The notes beneath the pieces are model-generated. The model ran no database searches. It was not told the DNA's origin and was given only the letters and a program-made list of their open reading frames with translations. The position numbers and the translations under genes were made by a program. Below, one piece after another: positions 20,279-26,823 of a stretch of DNA of 64,000 nt (positions within the stretch are counted from its first letter, which is position 1; each line of letters starts with the position of its first letter). This DNA comes from Rhodospirillaceae bacterium (GTDB lineage: Bacteria > Pseudomonadota > Alphaproteobacteria > Rhodospirillales > Casp-alpha2): the NCBI GenBank assembly GCA_018665815.1, contig JABJBP010000071.1:1-64000 (forward strand). The letters run 5' to 3'.

Positions 20279-20342
20279 GCCCTGAGGCCTAACTTTTTAA
20301 CCGATGGTGTCACTTAGATATATGAACACGAGGTTTCCGCTC

Positions 20343-21203
20343 ATGCGCAGATTTACGGCCCTAATTTTCCTGTCGTTAATTTTTGCCGTATCGCCCGCCG
20401 GCGCGCAGAAAACCAGCACGCCACCTGTAGTGCAATCCCCTGGGCAATCCTTAGCACCCGGCAGCATCTTTAAGGAATGCAAAAACTGCCCGCAGATGGT
20501 TGTGGTTCCCGCTGGCATTTACATCATGGGGTTGGGCGGCAAGGGCCGCCATGGCCCGCCGCACCGCGTCAACTTCAAGCGCCCCTTCGCCGTTGGACGC
20601 TATGAGGTCAAATTTTCAGAATGGTTCGCCTGCGTGCGCGATGAGGTTTGCATCCATCAGCCACACGATCACAAGTGGGGCCGCATCGGTCGCCCGGTGA
20701 TCAACATCACCTGGCATCAGGCGAAAAATTTCACCAAATGGCTAAGCAAGAAGACCGGCTTTGTCTACCGCCTGCCGACGGAAGCCGAATGGGAATATGC
20801 ACACCGCGGCGGCACGACGACGAAATTCTGGTGGGGCGACAAGCCCGGCGAAAACCTCGCTAATTGCCGGGACTGCAAATCGCGGGCTTGTTGCACATCA
20901 AAAGATCATTCTTGTTGTTCGCACGGCACCCAACCGGTGGGGACCTATGGCGCCAACCCGTTTGGCCTGCACGACACGTCCGGCAATGTTTTTGAGTGGA
21001 CCGAAGATTGCTGGAACCGTGGCCACAAAGGTGCGCCCCGAGACGGCAGCGCGCGCAAGTCCGGCGATTGCCGCAATCGGGTGATCCGAGGCGGCTCGTT
21101 CTATTATTTCAACAAGGTCTCGCAATCCTATTACCGCTCGAAGAATCCGCCGGGGGTGAAAAGCTATTGGCTGGGATTCCGGGTCGTTCGGGAGATGCCA
21201 TGA
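20343..21203 (+). CDS. Exported formylglycine-generating-enzyme-fold (SUMF1-type) protein with a Cys-rich insertion
   Basis: A 286-residue protein with a signal peptide (MRRFTALIFLSLIFAVSPAGA) and an FGE-sulfatase/SUMF1 domain: MVVVPAGIYIMG, RYEVKFSEW, YRLPTEAEWEYA, GLHDTSGNVFEWTEDCW and VIRGGSFYY. The copper-binding cysteines of true FGE, expected shortly after RGGSF, are Tyr and Ser, so formylglycine formation is unlikely. Residues 175-192 hold an unusual cluster, C-x2-C-x4-CC-x6-CC. The ATG at 20343 follows a GAGG site and opens the signal peptide; two upstream ATGs are possible. It is coupled by ATGA overlap to the PLD gene. Confidence 0.85.
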   Translation: MRRFTALIFLSLIFAVSPAGAQKTSTPPVVQSPGQSLAPGSIFKECKNCPQMVVVPAGIYIMGLGGKGRHGPPHRVNFKRPFAVGRYEVKFSEWFACVRDEVCIHQPHDHKWGRIGRPVINITWHQAKNFTKWLSKKTGFVYRLPTEAEWEYAHRGGTTTKFWWGDKPGENLANCRDCKSRACCTSKDHSCCSHGTQPVGTYGANPFGLHDTSGNVFEWTEDCWNRGHKGAPRDGSARKSGDCRNRVIRGGSFYYFNKVSQSYYRSKNPPGVKSYWLGFRVVREMP

Positions 21204-22285
21204 ATGATGTCCCCGATGCAGCCACAAGGATTTTGGCCACGCTCGCGGTGGCGGCGATGGCGCTAAGCCCCGTCGATAGCGCCGCCGCCGAAGGCTACAA
21301 GGTCATCAAAAAAGACGGCTATGCCTACCGGGTCATCACCGATGGGCCATGGCAGGACCGCATCGCCTGGGCCTTCGACAAACCGAAAGACTCTTCCGAT
21401 CCGACGGGTTTATTGCTGCAGCATTTGCGGGCCGCCAACGACATCGTCTGGGCAAGCTACAAGCCGACCCATCCCGATATCGCCCAGGTCCTGAACACCC
21501 ATCCGCGGGCATACGGCGTTTATGACCGAAATTACTGCGGTGAAGCCTGTGAGGATGCGTTTGGCGGCAATGATCGCGTCAAGCCGGTGAGCCTGGGCAT
21601 CTACAAGCCTAAGAGCAAACGCAAATGGTTCGTGATGCATCACAAATTTGCTGTCCTGAACCGCGCGACAGACGGCCCCCGTGACAAGGAAGGCGTCGTC
21701 ACCGGCAGCTTTAATTGGAATACCAAGGCCGCCGAACTGAATTATGAAAACCTGATCTATATTCAAAGCCGGAAGATCGCCGATGCCTATTGGCGGGAAT
21801 ATGAGCGGATTAATGCCAATGGTACAGGCAACCCGGGGCCGGTCAGCGACGGTGATATTACAGCCGCCTTCAACGATGCCGGCACGGCGCTTCTTGTTGA
21901 TCGAATTTCAGCGGCGAAGAAAAGTATCTATGCCGCGGTTTGGAGCATTAGCGTGGCGTCGGCGAAAAATCCCAACCCGGTGTATGACGCCTTAGCCGCC
22001 GCGGTGGCTCGGGGCGTTGTCCTTCATCTGATCACCGACGGACACAAAGCGAAGAAACGAACCTATGATGATTTCGATGTCATCGGCGCGAACATGCCGA
22101 CTAAGAGTGGGCACATGCACCACAAGTTCATGGTTATCGATGGGGAACAGGTGGTTTCCGGCAGCTTCAACTTCGTCACCAAATCATTTTCGGGTAACGA
22201 TGAAAACGTTGTCGGGATCAAAAGCACCGCTATGGCGACATCATTCACCAATCATTGGCGAGCCATGTTGAGCGCCGTCAGGTGA
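21200..22285 (+). CDS. Exported phospholipase-D superfamily protein
   Basis: A 361-residue protein with a hydrophobic, signal-like N-terminus (ILATLAVAAMALS, ending near DSAAAEG) and two PLD domains. Each has a His-x-Lys motif, at 147-149 (MHHKFAVL) and 307-309 (MHHKFMVID), followed by a GSFN motif (TGSFNW, SGSFNF). Both halves of a PLD active site are therefore present; substrates could be phospholipid, nucleic acid or another phosphodiester. The NYCGEAC pair may form a disulfide. It is translated together with the FGE-fold protein and both should be periplasmic. Confidence 0.87.
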   Translation: MNDVPDAATRILATLAVAAMALSPVDSAAAEGYKVIKKDGYAYRVITDGPWQDRIAWAFDKPKDSSDPTGLLLQHLRAANDIVWASYKPTHPDIAQVLNTHPRAYGVYDRNYCGEACEDAFGGNDRVKPVSLGIYKPKSKRKWFVMHHKFAVLNRATDGPRDKEGVVTGSFNWNTKAAELNYENLIYIQSRKIADAYWREYERINANGTGNPGPVSDGDITAAFNDAGTALLVDRISAAKKSIYAAVWSISVASAKNPNPVYDALAAAVARGVVLHLITDGHKAKKRTYDDFDVIGANMPTKSGHMHHKFMVIDGEQVVSGSFNFVTKSFSGNDENVVGIKSTAMATSFTNHWRAMLSAVR

Positions 22286-22329: not shown

Positions 22330-22971
22330 TTAAGACTTGCCGCCGGACAATCGGTTCAGCTGGCTTTGCATTTGTTCCAACTGAGATTTCAAGGTTTCCA
22401 AATCTTCGGCACTGGCGCCTTCATCCGCCGCCACGTTCGGCGCCTCGGCGCCCCCTGTGCCGTTCGGCGCAGGGCTACCGTTCGGATAAAACGGCGTGAA
22501 CATCTTCATAGCGTTCTCGAACATCGCCATGTTCTGCTTACCGATTTCTTCAAACGGGCCAAGCGGACTAATTCCACCAAGCGCGTCGCTCATGGCGCCA
22601 CGCATTTGTTCTTGGTTGCGGGCGAAATTGTGCATGGTCGCGTCCAGATAATTGGGGACAACGGCTTGCAGGCTGTCGCCGTAAAAACTGATCAGGTGAC
22701 GCAGGAAATCGATGGGCAACAGGTTTTGGCCCTTGCCTTCTTCTTCGACGATAATATGGGTCAGGACAGAGCGCGTAATGTCATCGCCGGACTTGGCATC
22801 GAACACGACAAAATCAGTACCGTCTTTGACCATCTGCGCCAAATGATCGAGGGTGACATAGCTTGAAGTCTGTGTGTTGTAGAGCCGCCGGTTGGCGTAC
22901 TTCTTAATCGTCACACGCACTTTCTCAGCATCGCCTTCGGACTTGTCGGTCGATTTGGCATTTTCGGCCAT
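22330..22971 (-). CDS. phaR: Polyhydroxyalkanoate synthesis repressor
   Basis: A 213-residue PhaR. The N-terminal DNA- and PHA-binding domain is clear (VTIKKYANRRLYNT, SYVTLDHLAQMVKDG, then ITRSVLTHII), followed by the PHB accumulation regulatory domain (FLRHLISFYGDSLQAVVPNYL) and a Pro/Gly-rich linker ending in a short coiled coil. In Paracoccus and relatives PhaR represses phasin and PHA genes by binding TGC-rich DNA and lets go when PHA is present. The ATG at 22971 follows GGAGAG by seven bases. It diverges from the synthase operon. Confidence 0.93.
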   Translation of the reverse strand: MAENAKSTDKSEGDAEKVRVTIKKYANRRLYNTQTSSYVTLDHLAQMVKDGTDFVVFDAKSGDDITRSVLTHIIVEEEGKGQNLLPIDFLRHLISFYGDSLQAVVPNYLDATMHNFARNQEQMRGAMSDALGGISPLGPFEEIGKQNMAMFENAMKMFTPFYPNGSPAPNGTGGAEAPNVAADEGASAEDLETLKSQLEQMQSQLNRLSGGKS

Positions 22972-23152: not shown

Positions 23153-23198
23153 GAGCCGTCGGCCACGCTAGGGTCGCCCACGGAGAGGAAGAAGAACC

Positions 23199-23591
23199 AT
23201 GTCCAATACGCCAGACGTGAACGACCCGGACGTGGACGACCCGGACGTGGACAATTTGGACGTAAACGATTTGGCAAAGCGCTATATGGACCTTTGGCAG
23301 GAACATCTGAACGCCGTTGCCGGCGACAAGAATACCGCCGAGGTCATGGCCCGAACCATGGCGGTAATGAGTTCCGGCGCTCAGGCCTTTGCCGCTGGCG
23401 CTGGTCATGACTTCTCGGGAAACCCGCCTCGGCCCGAGGCCGCTGCCGCTTCTGATGGCGATCCAGTCGCTGAGCGCGCTCAGCTCCTTGGCCGCCTTGC
23501 CGCTCTTGAGGGACGGGTCGCTCAGCTGGAATCCGAGCTTGCAATCCTCCGCGAGCGAACTCGACCCATTGATCCGCCAGACGATCCCTGA
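23199..23591 (+). CDS. Small acidic coiled-coil protein, candidate PHA synthase partner
   Basis: A 130-residue protein. Residues 4-22 are an Asp-rich repeat (PDVNDPDVDDPDVD), encoded by a near-perfect 12-base DNA repeat; a helical middle (AKRYMDLWQEHLNAVAG) recalls PhaE-like or phasin-like helices, and the C-terminus is a leucine-heptad coiled coil (LLGRLAALEGRVAQLESEL). AGGAAGAA precedes the ATG. Its last 62 codons overlap the synthase gene in another frame. Small coiled-coil partners activate short PhaC enzymes in class III and IV systems; that role is inferred here. Confidence 0.7.
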   Translation: MSNTPDVNDPDVDDPDVDNLDVNDLAKRYMDLWQEHLNAVAGDKNTAEVMARTMAVMSSGAQAFAAGAGHDFSGNPPRPEAAAASDGDPVAERAQLLGRLAALEGRVAQLESELAILRERTRPIDPPDDP

Positions 23592-24639
23592 AGATTTCGC
23601 CACCGCCGTCGAGGCCGAGGCACGACGCCGGCTATCGACTTTCGCCGACGGCGTCGCCGCCTACCAAACTGCCGGAAATTCCGTGCGCCCGACTGAGCCA
23701 CCGGCCATCTGGTCACGCGGCTCGGCCCGGCTATTGGACTACGGCGCCACAGCACCGGGCGCCGCTGCATGCCTGCCCCTGCTCTGCATCCCATCGCTGA
23801 TCAACCGCGGGTACATTCTGGACCTGACGGAAAGGCGCAGTCTGATGCGGGCCCTGGCCGCGGATGGGTTCCGTCCGCTGTTGATGGATTGGGGCACCCC
23901 GGATAATGAAGAGCGCAACTATTCACTCACCGACTACATCGACGGCCACTTAGGCGATGCGCTGACATTCATCGAAGATGATTGCGGCCGCCCACCGGCC
24001 GTGCTGGGCTATTGCATGGGCGGCAACTTGGCCTTGGCGTTGGCAGTACGGCGCCCCCAAAGCGTCCGGGCACTGGCTTTGCTGGCAACGCCGTGGGATT
24101 TCCAGGCCGGGCACTCCGCCGCCCAACCGTTTCTGGCCGCCCTGGCGCCCGGGCTGGAGACAATGATCGCCAACCTGGGCATCCTCCCGGTCGATGTCCT
24201 CCAAGCACTATTCACCGGCCTCAATCCGGCCCTCACCGGGGCCAAATTTCGGCAATTCGCCGACATGAAAAAGGATGGCGAACACGCTCGCCAATTCGTC
24301 GCTTTGGAAGATTGGCTGAATGATGGTGTTGTGTTGTCGGGCCCGGTAGCGCGTGAATGCCTGTTCGATTGGTATCTTCGCAATACACCAGCAAACGGCG
24401 CGTGGCAGGTCGGCGGTCAAATTGTCGACCCGGCAATCCTCAAACATCCAACGTTGTTGATGGTACCCGGCGACGACTACATCGTGCCGCCCGCCTCGGC
24501 CAAGCCCCTCGGCGACGTGCTGCCAAACGCTCAACTTCGGACGGTAAAGGCCGGGCACATCGGCATGGTCGCCGGCGGTCGCGCCAAATCGATGCTGTAT
24601 ATGCCGCTGGCGACATGGCTGAAGGAAAACGTCACGTAG
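23407..24639 (+). CDS. phaC: PhaC-type polyhydroxyalkanoate synthase (short form)
   Basis: A 410-residue alpha/beta hydrolase with the PHA synthase active site: nucleophilic Cys203 in GYCMGG where lipases have Ser, the Asp in VPGDDYIVPP and the His in KAGHIGMV. LMDWGTPD is typical of PhaC. It is shorter than class I synthases (about 590 residues) and nearer the class III/IV size. It should polymerise 3-hydroxyacyl-CoA at the granule surface. The ATG at 23407 lies inside the preceding gene; RLGPRPLPL right after it looks family-conserved, which supports an out-of-frame overlap of 185 bases. Confidence 0.8.
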   Translation: MTSRETRLGPRPLPLLMAIQSLSALSSLAALPLLRDGSLSWNPSLQSSASELDPLIRQTIPEDFATAVEAEARRRLSTFADGVAAYQTAGNSVRPTEPPAIWSRGSARLLDYGATAPGAAACLPLLCIPSLINRGYILDLTERRSLMRALAADGFRPLLMDWGTPDNEERNYSLTDYIDGHLGDALTFIEDDCGRPPAVLGYCMGGNLALALAVRRPQSVRALALLATPWDFQAGHSAAQPFLAALAPGLETMIANLGILPVDVLQALFTGLNPALTGAKFRQFADMKKDGEHARQFVALEDWLNDGVVLSGPVARECLFDWYLRNTPANGAWQVGGQIVDPAILKHPTLLMVPGDDYIVPPASAKPLGDVLPNAQLRTVKAGHIGMVAGGRAKSMLYMPLATWLKENVT

Positions 24640-24894: not shown

Positions 24895-26070
24895 ATGACG
24901 GAAGTTGTGATTGCGGGCGCGGCCCGCACACCGGTTGGTGCGTTCAGCGGTGGCCTTAGCGGCGTGCCGGCTCATGAATTGGGCGAGGTCGCCATCTCGG
25001 CGGCATTGGAACGCGCCGGGGTGTCGCCGGACGACGTGAATGAAGTAATCATGGGTCAAATTCTTGCCGCCGGTGGTGGACAGAACCCGGCTCGCCAAGC
25101 CGCCATGGCCGCTGGCGTGCCCCAGGAAAGCACCGCCTACGGCATCAACCAGTTATGCGGTTCGGGCCTACGCACGGTGGCGCTGGGTTACCAAGCCATC
25201 AAATGCGACGACAGCGACATCGTCGTCGCCGGCGGCCACGAAAGCATGAGCCAATCGCCACATGTCATGCATCTGCGTAACGGCACCAAGATGGGCAACG
25301 CGGAATTGGTCGATACCATGATCAAGGACGGCCTTTGGGATGCCTTTAACGGCTACCACATGGGCAACACGGCCGAGAATATCGCCACCCAATGGCAGCT
25401 GACGCGCGAAGAGCAGGATGCCTTCGCCGCCAACTCTCAGCAGAAAGCCGAAGCCGCCATGAAGGCCGGCAAGTTCAAGGACGAGATCGCGCCTGTCACC
25501 ATCAAGACCCGCAAAGGTGAAACCGTCGTCGACACGGACGAGCACCCTAAGGAAGGCGTTACAGCCGAAGGCTTAGCAAAATTGCGCGCGGCATTTGACA
25601 AAGAAGGCACCGTCACCGCCGGCAACGCGTCAGGCATCAATGACGGCGGCGCCGCCGTCGTTCTGATGAGCGCCGACGAAGCCGACAAGCGCGGCATTGC
25701 CCCACTGGCCCGCATCAAATCTTGGGCCACCGCCGGTGTTGATCCGGCGATCATGGGCACCGGCCCGATCCCGGCCAGCCGCATGGCGTTGGAAAAAGCC
25801 GGCTGGACCACCGATGATCTCGATCTGGTCGAAGCCAACGAAGCCTTCGCAGCCCAAGCCTGTGCGGTCAATAAGGACATGGGATGGGACACTGACAAGG
25901 TTAACGTCAACGGCGGCGCCATTGCGTTGGGTCACCCCATCGGTGCATCCGGGGCACGGGTCCTGGTCACGCTTCTTTTTGAGATGCAGAAGCGCGACGC
26001 CAAGAAAGGCCTAGCCACCTTGTGCATCGGTGGCGGCATGGGCATCGCCATGTGCGTCGAGCGCGACTAG
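24895..26070 (+). CDS. phaA: Acetyl-CoA acetyltransferase (beta-ketothiolase)
   Basis: Condenses two acetyl-CoA to acetoacetyl-CoA, the first step of PHB synthesis. The 391-residue product has Cys88 (NQLCGSG), the GHPIGASG His and the CIGGGMG Cys of biosynthetic thiolases, plus [11 protein letters not shown] strong AGGAGGA site precedes the ATG. phaB follows after 27 bases, and together they feed the synthase upstream. Confidence 0.96.
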
Positions 26071-26097: not shown

Positions 26098-26823
26098 ATG
26101 GCACGTGTTGCACTGGTTACCGGCGGGACCCGAGGTATCGGCCGCGCCATTTCTGAAGGACTGAAGGAAGCGGGCTACACGGTCGCCGCCAGCTACGCCG
26201 GCAACGACGAAGCCGCCGCGGCCTTCAAGGAAGAAACCGGCATTGACGTCTACAAGTTCGACGTCGGTAATTTCGACGCCTGCGCCGCCGCAATCGCACA
26301 GATCAAAGCGGATCATGATGCCATTGAGGTGTTGGTCAACAACGCCGGCATTACCCGCGACAAGCCTCTCCATAAGATGGAAAAGGCGCATTGGGATGCC
26401 GTCATCAACACCAACCTGAATGGCCTGTTCAACATGTGCCGCAACGTCATCGACGACATGCGCGGTGCCGGTTTTGGACGGATTATCTCGATCAGTTCGA
26501 TCAACGGCCAGAAAGGCCAGTTCGGGCAGACCAACTATGCGGCGGCGAAAGCCGGCGACTTGGGCTTCACCAAGGCCTTGGCGCTGGAAACAGCGTCCAA
26601 GGGCATTACGGTGAATGCTATCGCACCGGGCTACATTGCCACCGAAATGGTCATGGCGGTGCCGGAAGACGTTCTGAACAACGTCATCATTCCGCAAATC
26701 CCCGTCGGTCGTTTGGGCCAGCCTGAGGAAATTGCGCGCTGTGTGACCTTCCTGGCTTCCGACGACGCTGGGCTGATCACCGGCTCGACCCTCACGGCGA
26801 ACGGCGGCCAATACATGGTCTAG
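26098..26823 (+). CDS. phaB: Acetoacetyl-CoA reductase
   Basis: A 241-residue short-chain dehydrogenase that reduces acetoacetyl-CoA to (R)-3-hydroxybutyryl-CoA with NADPH. The cofactor loop is TGGTRGIG (8-15), NNAGITRD follows, the catalytic Ser is in ISISSING and the YxxxK pair in TNYAAAKAG. The C-terminal TGSTLTANGGQYM is the usual end of PhaB. AGGGAGGA precedes the ATG. The operon ends at the terminator 26852-26886. Confidence 0.96.
   Translation: MARVALVTGGTRGIGRAISEGLKEAGYTVAASYAGNDEAAAAFKEETGIDVYKFDVGNFDACAAAIAQIKADHDAIEVLVNNAGITRDKPLHKMEKAHWDAVINTNLNGLFNMCRNVIDDMRGAGFGRIISISSINGQKGQFGQTNYAAAKAGDLGFTKALALETASKGITVNAIAPGYIATEMVMAVPEDVLNNVIIPQIPVGRLGQPEEIARCVTFLASDDAGLITGSTLTANGGQYMV

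Follow-up and report, generated by a model that had tools for sequence, protein, structure and literature searches.

Comparative evidence for about 200 bases encoding both a small coiled-coil protein and the start of a PhaC-type synthase in many Alphaproteobacteria

How can one stretch of DNA form the end of one gene and the beginning of the next in a different reading frame, and what could the two proteins have to do with each other? The question is raised by 64,000 nucleotides (nt) from a Rhodospirillaceae bacterium (GenBank assembly GCA_018665815.1, contig JABJBP010000071.1, positions 1 to 64,000 of the forward strand; from here on the window), whose list of open reading frames (ORFs) holds a small gene for a coiled-coil protein of 130 amino acids and, starting inside it, a gene for a PhaC-type polyhydroxyalkanoate (PHA) synthase of 410 amino acids. 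The synthase frame is open from a TTG at 23389; counted from the ATG at 23407, the two genes overlap by exactly 185 nt. The original prediction, made from the letters of the window, had described this overlap in different frames, and it recurs in homologues. The features concerned are the following.

23199..23591, + strand: small gene, 130 amino acids; begins with an acidic helical block containing YxDLWQ, continues with a variable linker and ends in a coiled coil; fits no curated family
23407..24639, + strand: PhaC-type synthase, 410 amino acids, ATG at 23407; matches TIGR01836 with E 8e-53, below cut-off
23407..23591, + strand: dual-coding overlap of 185 nt, judged by comparative tests in homologues; the synthase is read in frame +1 with respect to the small gene
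23431..23451, + strand: GPRPLPL motif, residues 9-15 of the synthase N-terminus, near-universal among homologues (alignment)
23463..23558, + strand: coiled-coil helix of the small protein in the other frame, residues 89-120, with invariant R99, E104, R106 and E111 (alignment, AlphaFold2 (AF2) model)

A protein search found the small protein in 63 of 100 related genomes and in 34 of their 54 genera, and in all 30 of the relatives' loci examined the phase was again +1 and the start codon of the synthase lay inside the small gene. A scan of named genomes with the synthase alignment gave the 80 nearest synthase loci (Azospirillum, Magnetospirillum, Thalassospira, Nitrospirillum, Reyranella, Telmatospirillum and uncultured Alphaproteobacteria), of which 79 had an overlapping small ORF; 174 overlap pairs were collected Alphaproteobacteria-wide. 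The median length of the overlap is 200 nt and the small gene stops most often 161 nt past the start of the GPRPL motif (109 loci). Of 240 genomes evenly sampled from the class, 98 contained the synthase type and 81 the small family, some of the weakest matches to the latter being coil-only or spurious. The notion that the overlap is universal was dropped, because this sample shows losses of the coil. By these comparisons, about 200 bases encode both proteins at once in many alphaproteobacteria.

Are both frames selected as protein? At fourfold-degenerate third positions of the synthase, conservation relative to the codon-usage expectation is 1.23, 1.39 and 1.44 across codons 9-44 (the last two values for codons 21-44) and 0.99-1.20 downstream; fourfold differences amount to 0.106 in the overlap versus 0.228 downstream (22 of 23 independent close pairs, p = 2.6e-5), and all classes of change with enough sites have lower rates inside the overlap. 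When the synthase protein was held fixed and its codons were redrawn, the similarity in the small frame stood out with z values of 25-48 (downstream control windows, 2-9), and in 24-codon windows no small-frame stop was observed, where synonymous redrawing of the 61-65 divergent loci led one to expect stops in 8-20 of them. The reverse redrawing, with the small protein fixed, gave z values of 34-74 for conservation in the synthase frame. Both frames, which the original prediction had called protein-like, are thus constrained, and the RLGPRPLPL segment is conserved as it had guessed; judged by these patterns of change, both frames are constrained as protein and the genes are, on that criterion, a true dual-coding pair.

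An OLGenie-style NN/NS ratio for the small frame came out at 1.00 (bootstrap 0.61-1.80), which is uninformative because the silent sites of this frame are second positions of the synthase. A ratio not below 1 and the loss of the coil in several lineages would fit a small protein whose C-terminus is passive read-through to the first stop and functionless in the shared region. The constraint at fourfold sites and the redrawing test contradict such read-through, the heptad residues of the coil are invariant, and coil and tail remain under purifying selection where the synthase is absent (see below), so that we regard it as scarcely credible.

Where does the synthase start? In 100 of 109 loci its frame has an ATG after the upstream stop and ahead of the conserved GPRPLPLHL motif, and 121 non-redundant loci have, 5′ of the motif, an ATG (108), a GTG or TTG (10) or none of these (3). 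The mean Shine-Dalgarno energy is −4.95 kcal/mol at the synthase ATG versus −2.80 kcal/mol at other ATGs (p = 1.6e-21); across loci the Shine-Dalgarno-like signal peaks at −20 to −4 before the synthase ATG and is gone when the test window is shifted. A signal so position-specific makes independent internal initiation the simplest mechanism, ahead of frameshifting and of termination-reinitiation; coupling of the latter kind cannot act, since across loci the small gene runs on for 92-302 nt past the synthase start before it stops. We infer that translation of the synthase begins at an internal ATG of its own. That both proteins are made in the cell is predicted from start codon and Shine-Dalgarno signal.

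A synthase start downstream of 23591 in homologues had been named beforehand as one of two results that would count against the prediction, the other being a coil frame free of constraint; neither was observed. With a downstream start, the synthase would begin past the overlap, perhaps at a TTG in its frame close to where the small gene stops, and GPRPLPL would be a shadow of the conservation of the coil. The window's own synthase ATG is without a good Shine-Dalgarno sequence, so that the start there rests on homology, and class III/IV-like synthases do not have this N-terminal segment. In the homologues, however, start codons lie 5′ of the motif (118 of the 121 non-redundant loci, with the Shine-Dalgarno peak across the ATG loci), the synthase frame is conserved with the small protein held fixed, the motif is retained in lineages that have lost the coil frame and AF2 predicts helices in the segment. 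A downstream start can hardly be maintained.

Programmed +1 frameshifting, yielding a fusion of small protein and synthase from one start, would agree with the phase of the synthase frame and with the three loci in which none of ATG, GTG and TTG precedes the motif. It is very improbable in view of the start codons in all the others and of the position-specific Shine-Dalgarno signal, and in one locus the genes meet at a TGATG junction, the small gene being cut to its N-terminal block and the PRPL motif kept, a natural collapse of the overlap (L113, 2256-2455, identical with L241). One of the three loci is L081 (2180-2720), where a CTG start, a sequencing error or a frameshift is possible.

Internal initiation bears on the proposal that the overlap fixes the stoichiometry of the two proteins. 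This proposal is not supported: the synthase starts 92-302 nt before the small stop with its own Shine-Dalgarno signal, and each gene is found without the other (the small gene truncated or unrecognised). In L245, L249, L251 and others the synthase motif is kept and no coil is recognisable. In a gain/loss tree the coil-less forms are scattered, a few of them near the base, with a resolution too poor to date the origin of the overlap; their scatter speaks for repeated loss of the coil. Codon usage in the overlap is more native in the synthase frame at 165 of 174 loci and the synthase motif occurs in more lineages than the coil, which suggests overprinting of the coil on the 5′ end of the synthase gene, or at least a coil frame that is the more dispensable of the two. 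Because codon usage favours the synthase frame as the more native and the coil was lost several times, we would see in the overlap an ancient overprinting near the base of the synthase clade and not a means of setting stoichiometry.

The reverse case, a small gene without the synthase, was met in two genomes of one genus (G048 and G078), in which the order is phaR, small gene, phaA, phaB and only class I-like synthases occur elsewhere.

L136, 1408-1767 (G048), and L238, 1582-1992 (G078): small gene retained, flanked by phaR and phaA, where the synthase has been lost

Between the two, the small gene has nonsynonymous and synonymous distances of dN 0.125 and dS 0.759 (dN/dS about 0.17; about 0.20 for coil and tail). 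In a genome of the window's own genus (G003, L130/L240), the small gene contains in-frame stops and no synthase was seen in the stretch read, an apparent decay of the locus.

What kind of enzyme is the synthase? An alpha/beta hydrolase fold, a G-x-C-x-G-G box and a Cys-Asp-His triad place it in the PHA synthase superfamily, and its best matches among solved structures are PhaC enzymes. The GYCMGG box and three residues, taken by analogy with PhaC enzymes as the catalytic triad, are invariant in the alignment of homologues.

24013..24015, + strand: catalytic Cys203 of the GYCMGG box (invariant column)
24475..24477 and 24556..24558, + strand: Asp357 and His384, the rest of the invariant synthase triad (invariant columns)

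In the AF2 model (predicted local distance difference test, pLDDT, 88), the DNA of the overlap encodes the helices 13-36 and 43-57. The supposition that the enzyme belongs to the short PhaC enzymes of class III/IV stood insofar as it is PhaC-type and closest to these; it had to be amended in that TIGR01836 gives 179.6 bits versus the curated class III PhaC cut-off of 365.3 and in that the tree places it outside the class III/IV grouping on a branch of its own (support 99/99, length 2.18; bootstrap not fully settled). By profile and tree it forms a separate clade next to class III/IV and apart from class I. That it polymerises hydroxyacyl-CoA is predicted from its operon with phaA, phaB and phaR.

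This operon comprises, besides the genes already listed, the following.

22330..22971, − strand: phaR, PHA synthesis repressor, divergent neighbour (TIGR01848 above cut-off)
23182..23191, + strand: Shine-Dalgarno-like purine-rich stretch GGAGAGGAAG, 5′ of the ATG of the small gene (read from sequence)
24895..26070, + strand: phaA, acetyl-CoA acetyltransferase
26098..26823, + strand: phaB, acetoacetyl-CoA reductase (TIGR01829 above cut-off)

The locus is a polyhydroxybutyrate (PHB) operon with divergent phaR and the order small gene, phaC, phaA, phaB; in homologous loci phaR lies upstream in 75 of 79 and phaA and/or phaB downstream in most. The genome of the window (G000) has two further PhaC genes, both class I-like and of about 600 amino acids (C17, 33146-34144; C73, 114900-115805). 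Further upstream in the window, reading by eye found a sulfatase-modifying-factor-like gene (20304-21203) followed by a phospholipase D-like gene with an HxK motif (20996-22285).

What, then, is the small protein? The AF2 model (pLDDT 71) has three helices (residues 22-41, 44-68 and 89-120), of which the first two lie outside the overlap.

23262..23402, + strand: N-terminal helices of the small protein, residues 22-41 and 44-68 (AF2 model), with invariant L25, A26, Y29, L32, W33 and D43 (alignment)

In most homologues the tail is basic, with a median charge of +5 over the last 18 residues. In the window an acidic repeat, DVNDPDVDDPDVDNLDVND (23199-23260), absent from most homologues, precedes the conserved block. 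Scans of 26 members of the small family against Pfam and NCBIfam gave weak matches, mostly to coiled-coil models at best, and no curated family; the PhaE and PhaR profiles TIGR01834, PF09712 and TIGR02132 did not match the small protein, the PhaM profile NF043076 hit 2 of the 26 members at a non-significant E of 0.04, and a PDB profile search with the family returned generic coiled coils only. The gene does lie directly upstream of a short phaC, the position of PhaE and PhaR genes. The partner foreseen in the original prediction thus survives as a coiled-coil candidate within the locus phaR, small gene, phaC, phaA, phaB, for which the searches found no sequence homology to PhaE or PhaR.

Its fixed place before phaC and its anatomy of helices, coil and basic tail suggest a partner of the synthase or an organiser of the granule, and by analogy it probably activates the synthase or serves as a scaffold of the granule, much as PhaE, PhaR or PhaM do. 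In the explanation that we favour with reasonable confidence, a dual-coding PHB operon with an internal synthase ATG and the small protein as partner of the synthase, the last 60 or so codons of the small gene and the first 60 or so of the synthase are one piece of DNA in two frames, both selected as protein by the comparative tests, with the internal ATG placed at the tolerant low-complexity linker of the small protein. One frame of the shared stretch gives the extra N-terminal helices of the synthase (GPRPLPLHL...), the other the coiled coil and tail of the small protein, whose YLDLWQ helical block may contact synthase or granule, whose coil may multimerise it and whose basic tail may tether or organise, as in PhaE/PhaR or PhaM.

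Several observations weigh against this explanation, besides the NN/NS ratio of the small frame and the poor Shine-Dalgarno sequence of the window's synthase ATG. The tail of the window's small protein is not basic; comparison of the small family with PhaE and PhaR by hhalign, whole and split, was not significant, in a comparison in which PhaE and PhaR matched each other at 95.8%; and about eight synthases of the class sample have the motif without the coil. Since the small gene persists without the synthase in one genus, it may serve other synthases or the granule. Finally, PhaC1 of Rhodospirillum rubrum was stated, citing earlier work, to be more active than PhaC2 (PMC9999600), and if this activity was assayed with PhaC1 alone, the partner is not obligatory. 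R. rubrum PhaC1 (Rru_A0275) probably belongs to this synthase family. The reverse complement of the published quantitative PCR primer O280 encodes VEDWLND, near the LEDWLND of the family; a search for R. rubrum with a published primer matched no genome in our sample.

Two other roles have to be weighed. A granule or nucleoid tether of the PhaM or phasin kind, serving any synthase and not this one in particular, would account for the small gene kept beside phaAB in the two genomes with class I-like synthases only, for the basic tail and for the two weak PhaM matches; the near-constant linkage of the small gene to one synthase type and the non-significance of those matches make it a somewhat unlikely though serious alternative. 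A dedicated, obligatory second subunit, a mini-PhaE/PhaR without which the synthase is inactive, would suit a short synthase nearest to class III/IV, which require PhaE or PhaR, the order partner-then-synthase seen in PhaE-PhaC operons and the helix and coil anatomy. It is unlikely, given the lack of sequence homology to PhaE/PhaR, the synthases that persist with a truncated or unrecognised small gene and the activity reported for R. rubrum PhaC1. For the partnership that we prefer, the boldest formulation would be a new two-component class of PHA synthase that is widespread in Alphaproteobacteria and has as its second component an undescribed family with its coiled-coil end encoded inside the synthase gene; this we put forward tentatively, as somewhat short of an even prospect. 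If true, few same-strand dual-coding overlaps known from bacteria would match this one in length and depth of conservation.

Why has the small gene escaped notice? In the RefSeq-derived annotation of three Azospirillum plasmids, the order is phaR, "alpha/beta fold hydrolase", phaA, phaB and the small gene is missing; as the PLSDB table is incomplete, the evidence for the omission is strong, not final. PHB operons of organisms employed in PHB research, for example Azospirillum brasilense, probably contain this gene as a component that annotation has missed. Work on R. rubrum PhaC1 may be touched, in that constructs of the synthase ORF only would be without the small protein. Nothing describing this overlap came up in literature searches, most subscription journals being outside their reach.

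Same-direction overlaps this long and kept across a class are very rare, and this one is a good test case for two proteins sharing one DNA. Other long bacterial overlaps are known, for example rnpA/rpmH in Thermus and comS in srfA, so that the kind is not new; new are the combination, the depth of conservation and the partner family. A survey in 2008 that covered 338 prokaryotic genomes and 968 long overlaps accepted no co-directional overlap above 60 bp as real, the longest real case having 56 bp (PMC2478687); with about 200 nt, recurrence across a class and constraint in both frames, the present overlap is therefore a clear counter-example.

How does the pair compare with known systems? With class III PhaC-PhaE (TIGR01836 with PF09712 and TIGR01834) it shares a short PhaC with a Cys-Asp-His triad, a partner gene just upstream and a partner with a W-rich N-terminal helix and a C-terminal coil; it differs in a synthase that scores 180 versus 365 bits at the cut-off, forms a separate clade and has extra N-terminal helices, in a much shorter partner without detectable homology and in the long gene overlap. 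Class IV PhaC-PhaR (TIGR02132) likewise has a small coil-bearing partner, of similar size in the case of a 121-residue Novosphingobium protein, but the profile match is not significant and the PhaC-PhaR genes are non-overlapping in the loci seen. The Novosphingobium protein, a PhaR-like partner encoded before a short PhaC on pNL2 without overlap (L115, 2643-3008), is the smallest PhaE/PhaR-like subunit encountered here. PhaM, the activator of PhaC1 in Cupriavidus necator, activates its synthase and has a lysine/arginine-rich tail (PMC9049629), as is proposed for the small protein; PhaM is, however, a 32-kDa protein serving a class I synthase, and its profile match here is the non-significant one at E 0.04. 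Long same-strand overlaps such as holD-rimI are also conserved and co-directional, but holD-rimI measures up to 56 bp and is found within enterobacteria (PMC2478687), whereas the overlap described here extends over about 200 nt and across a class.
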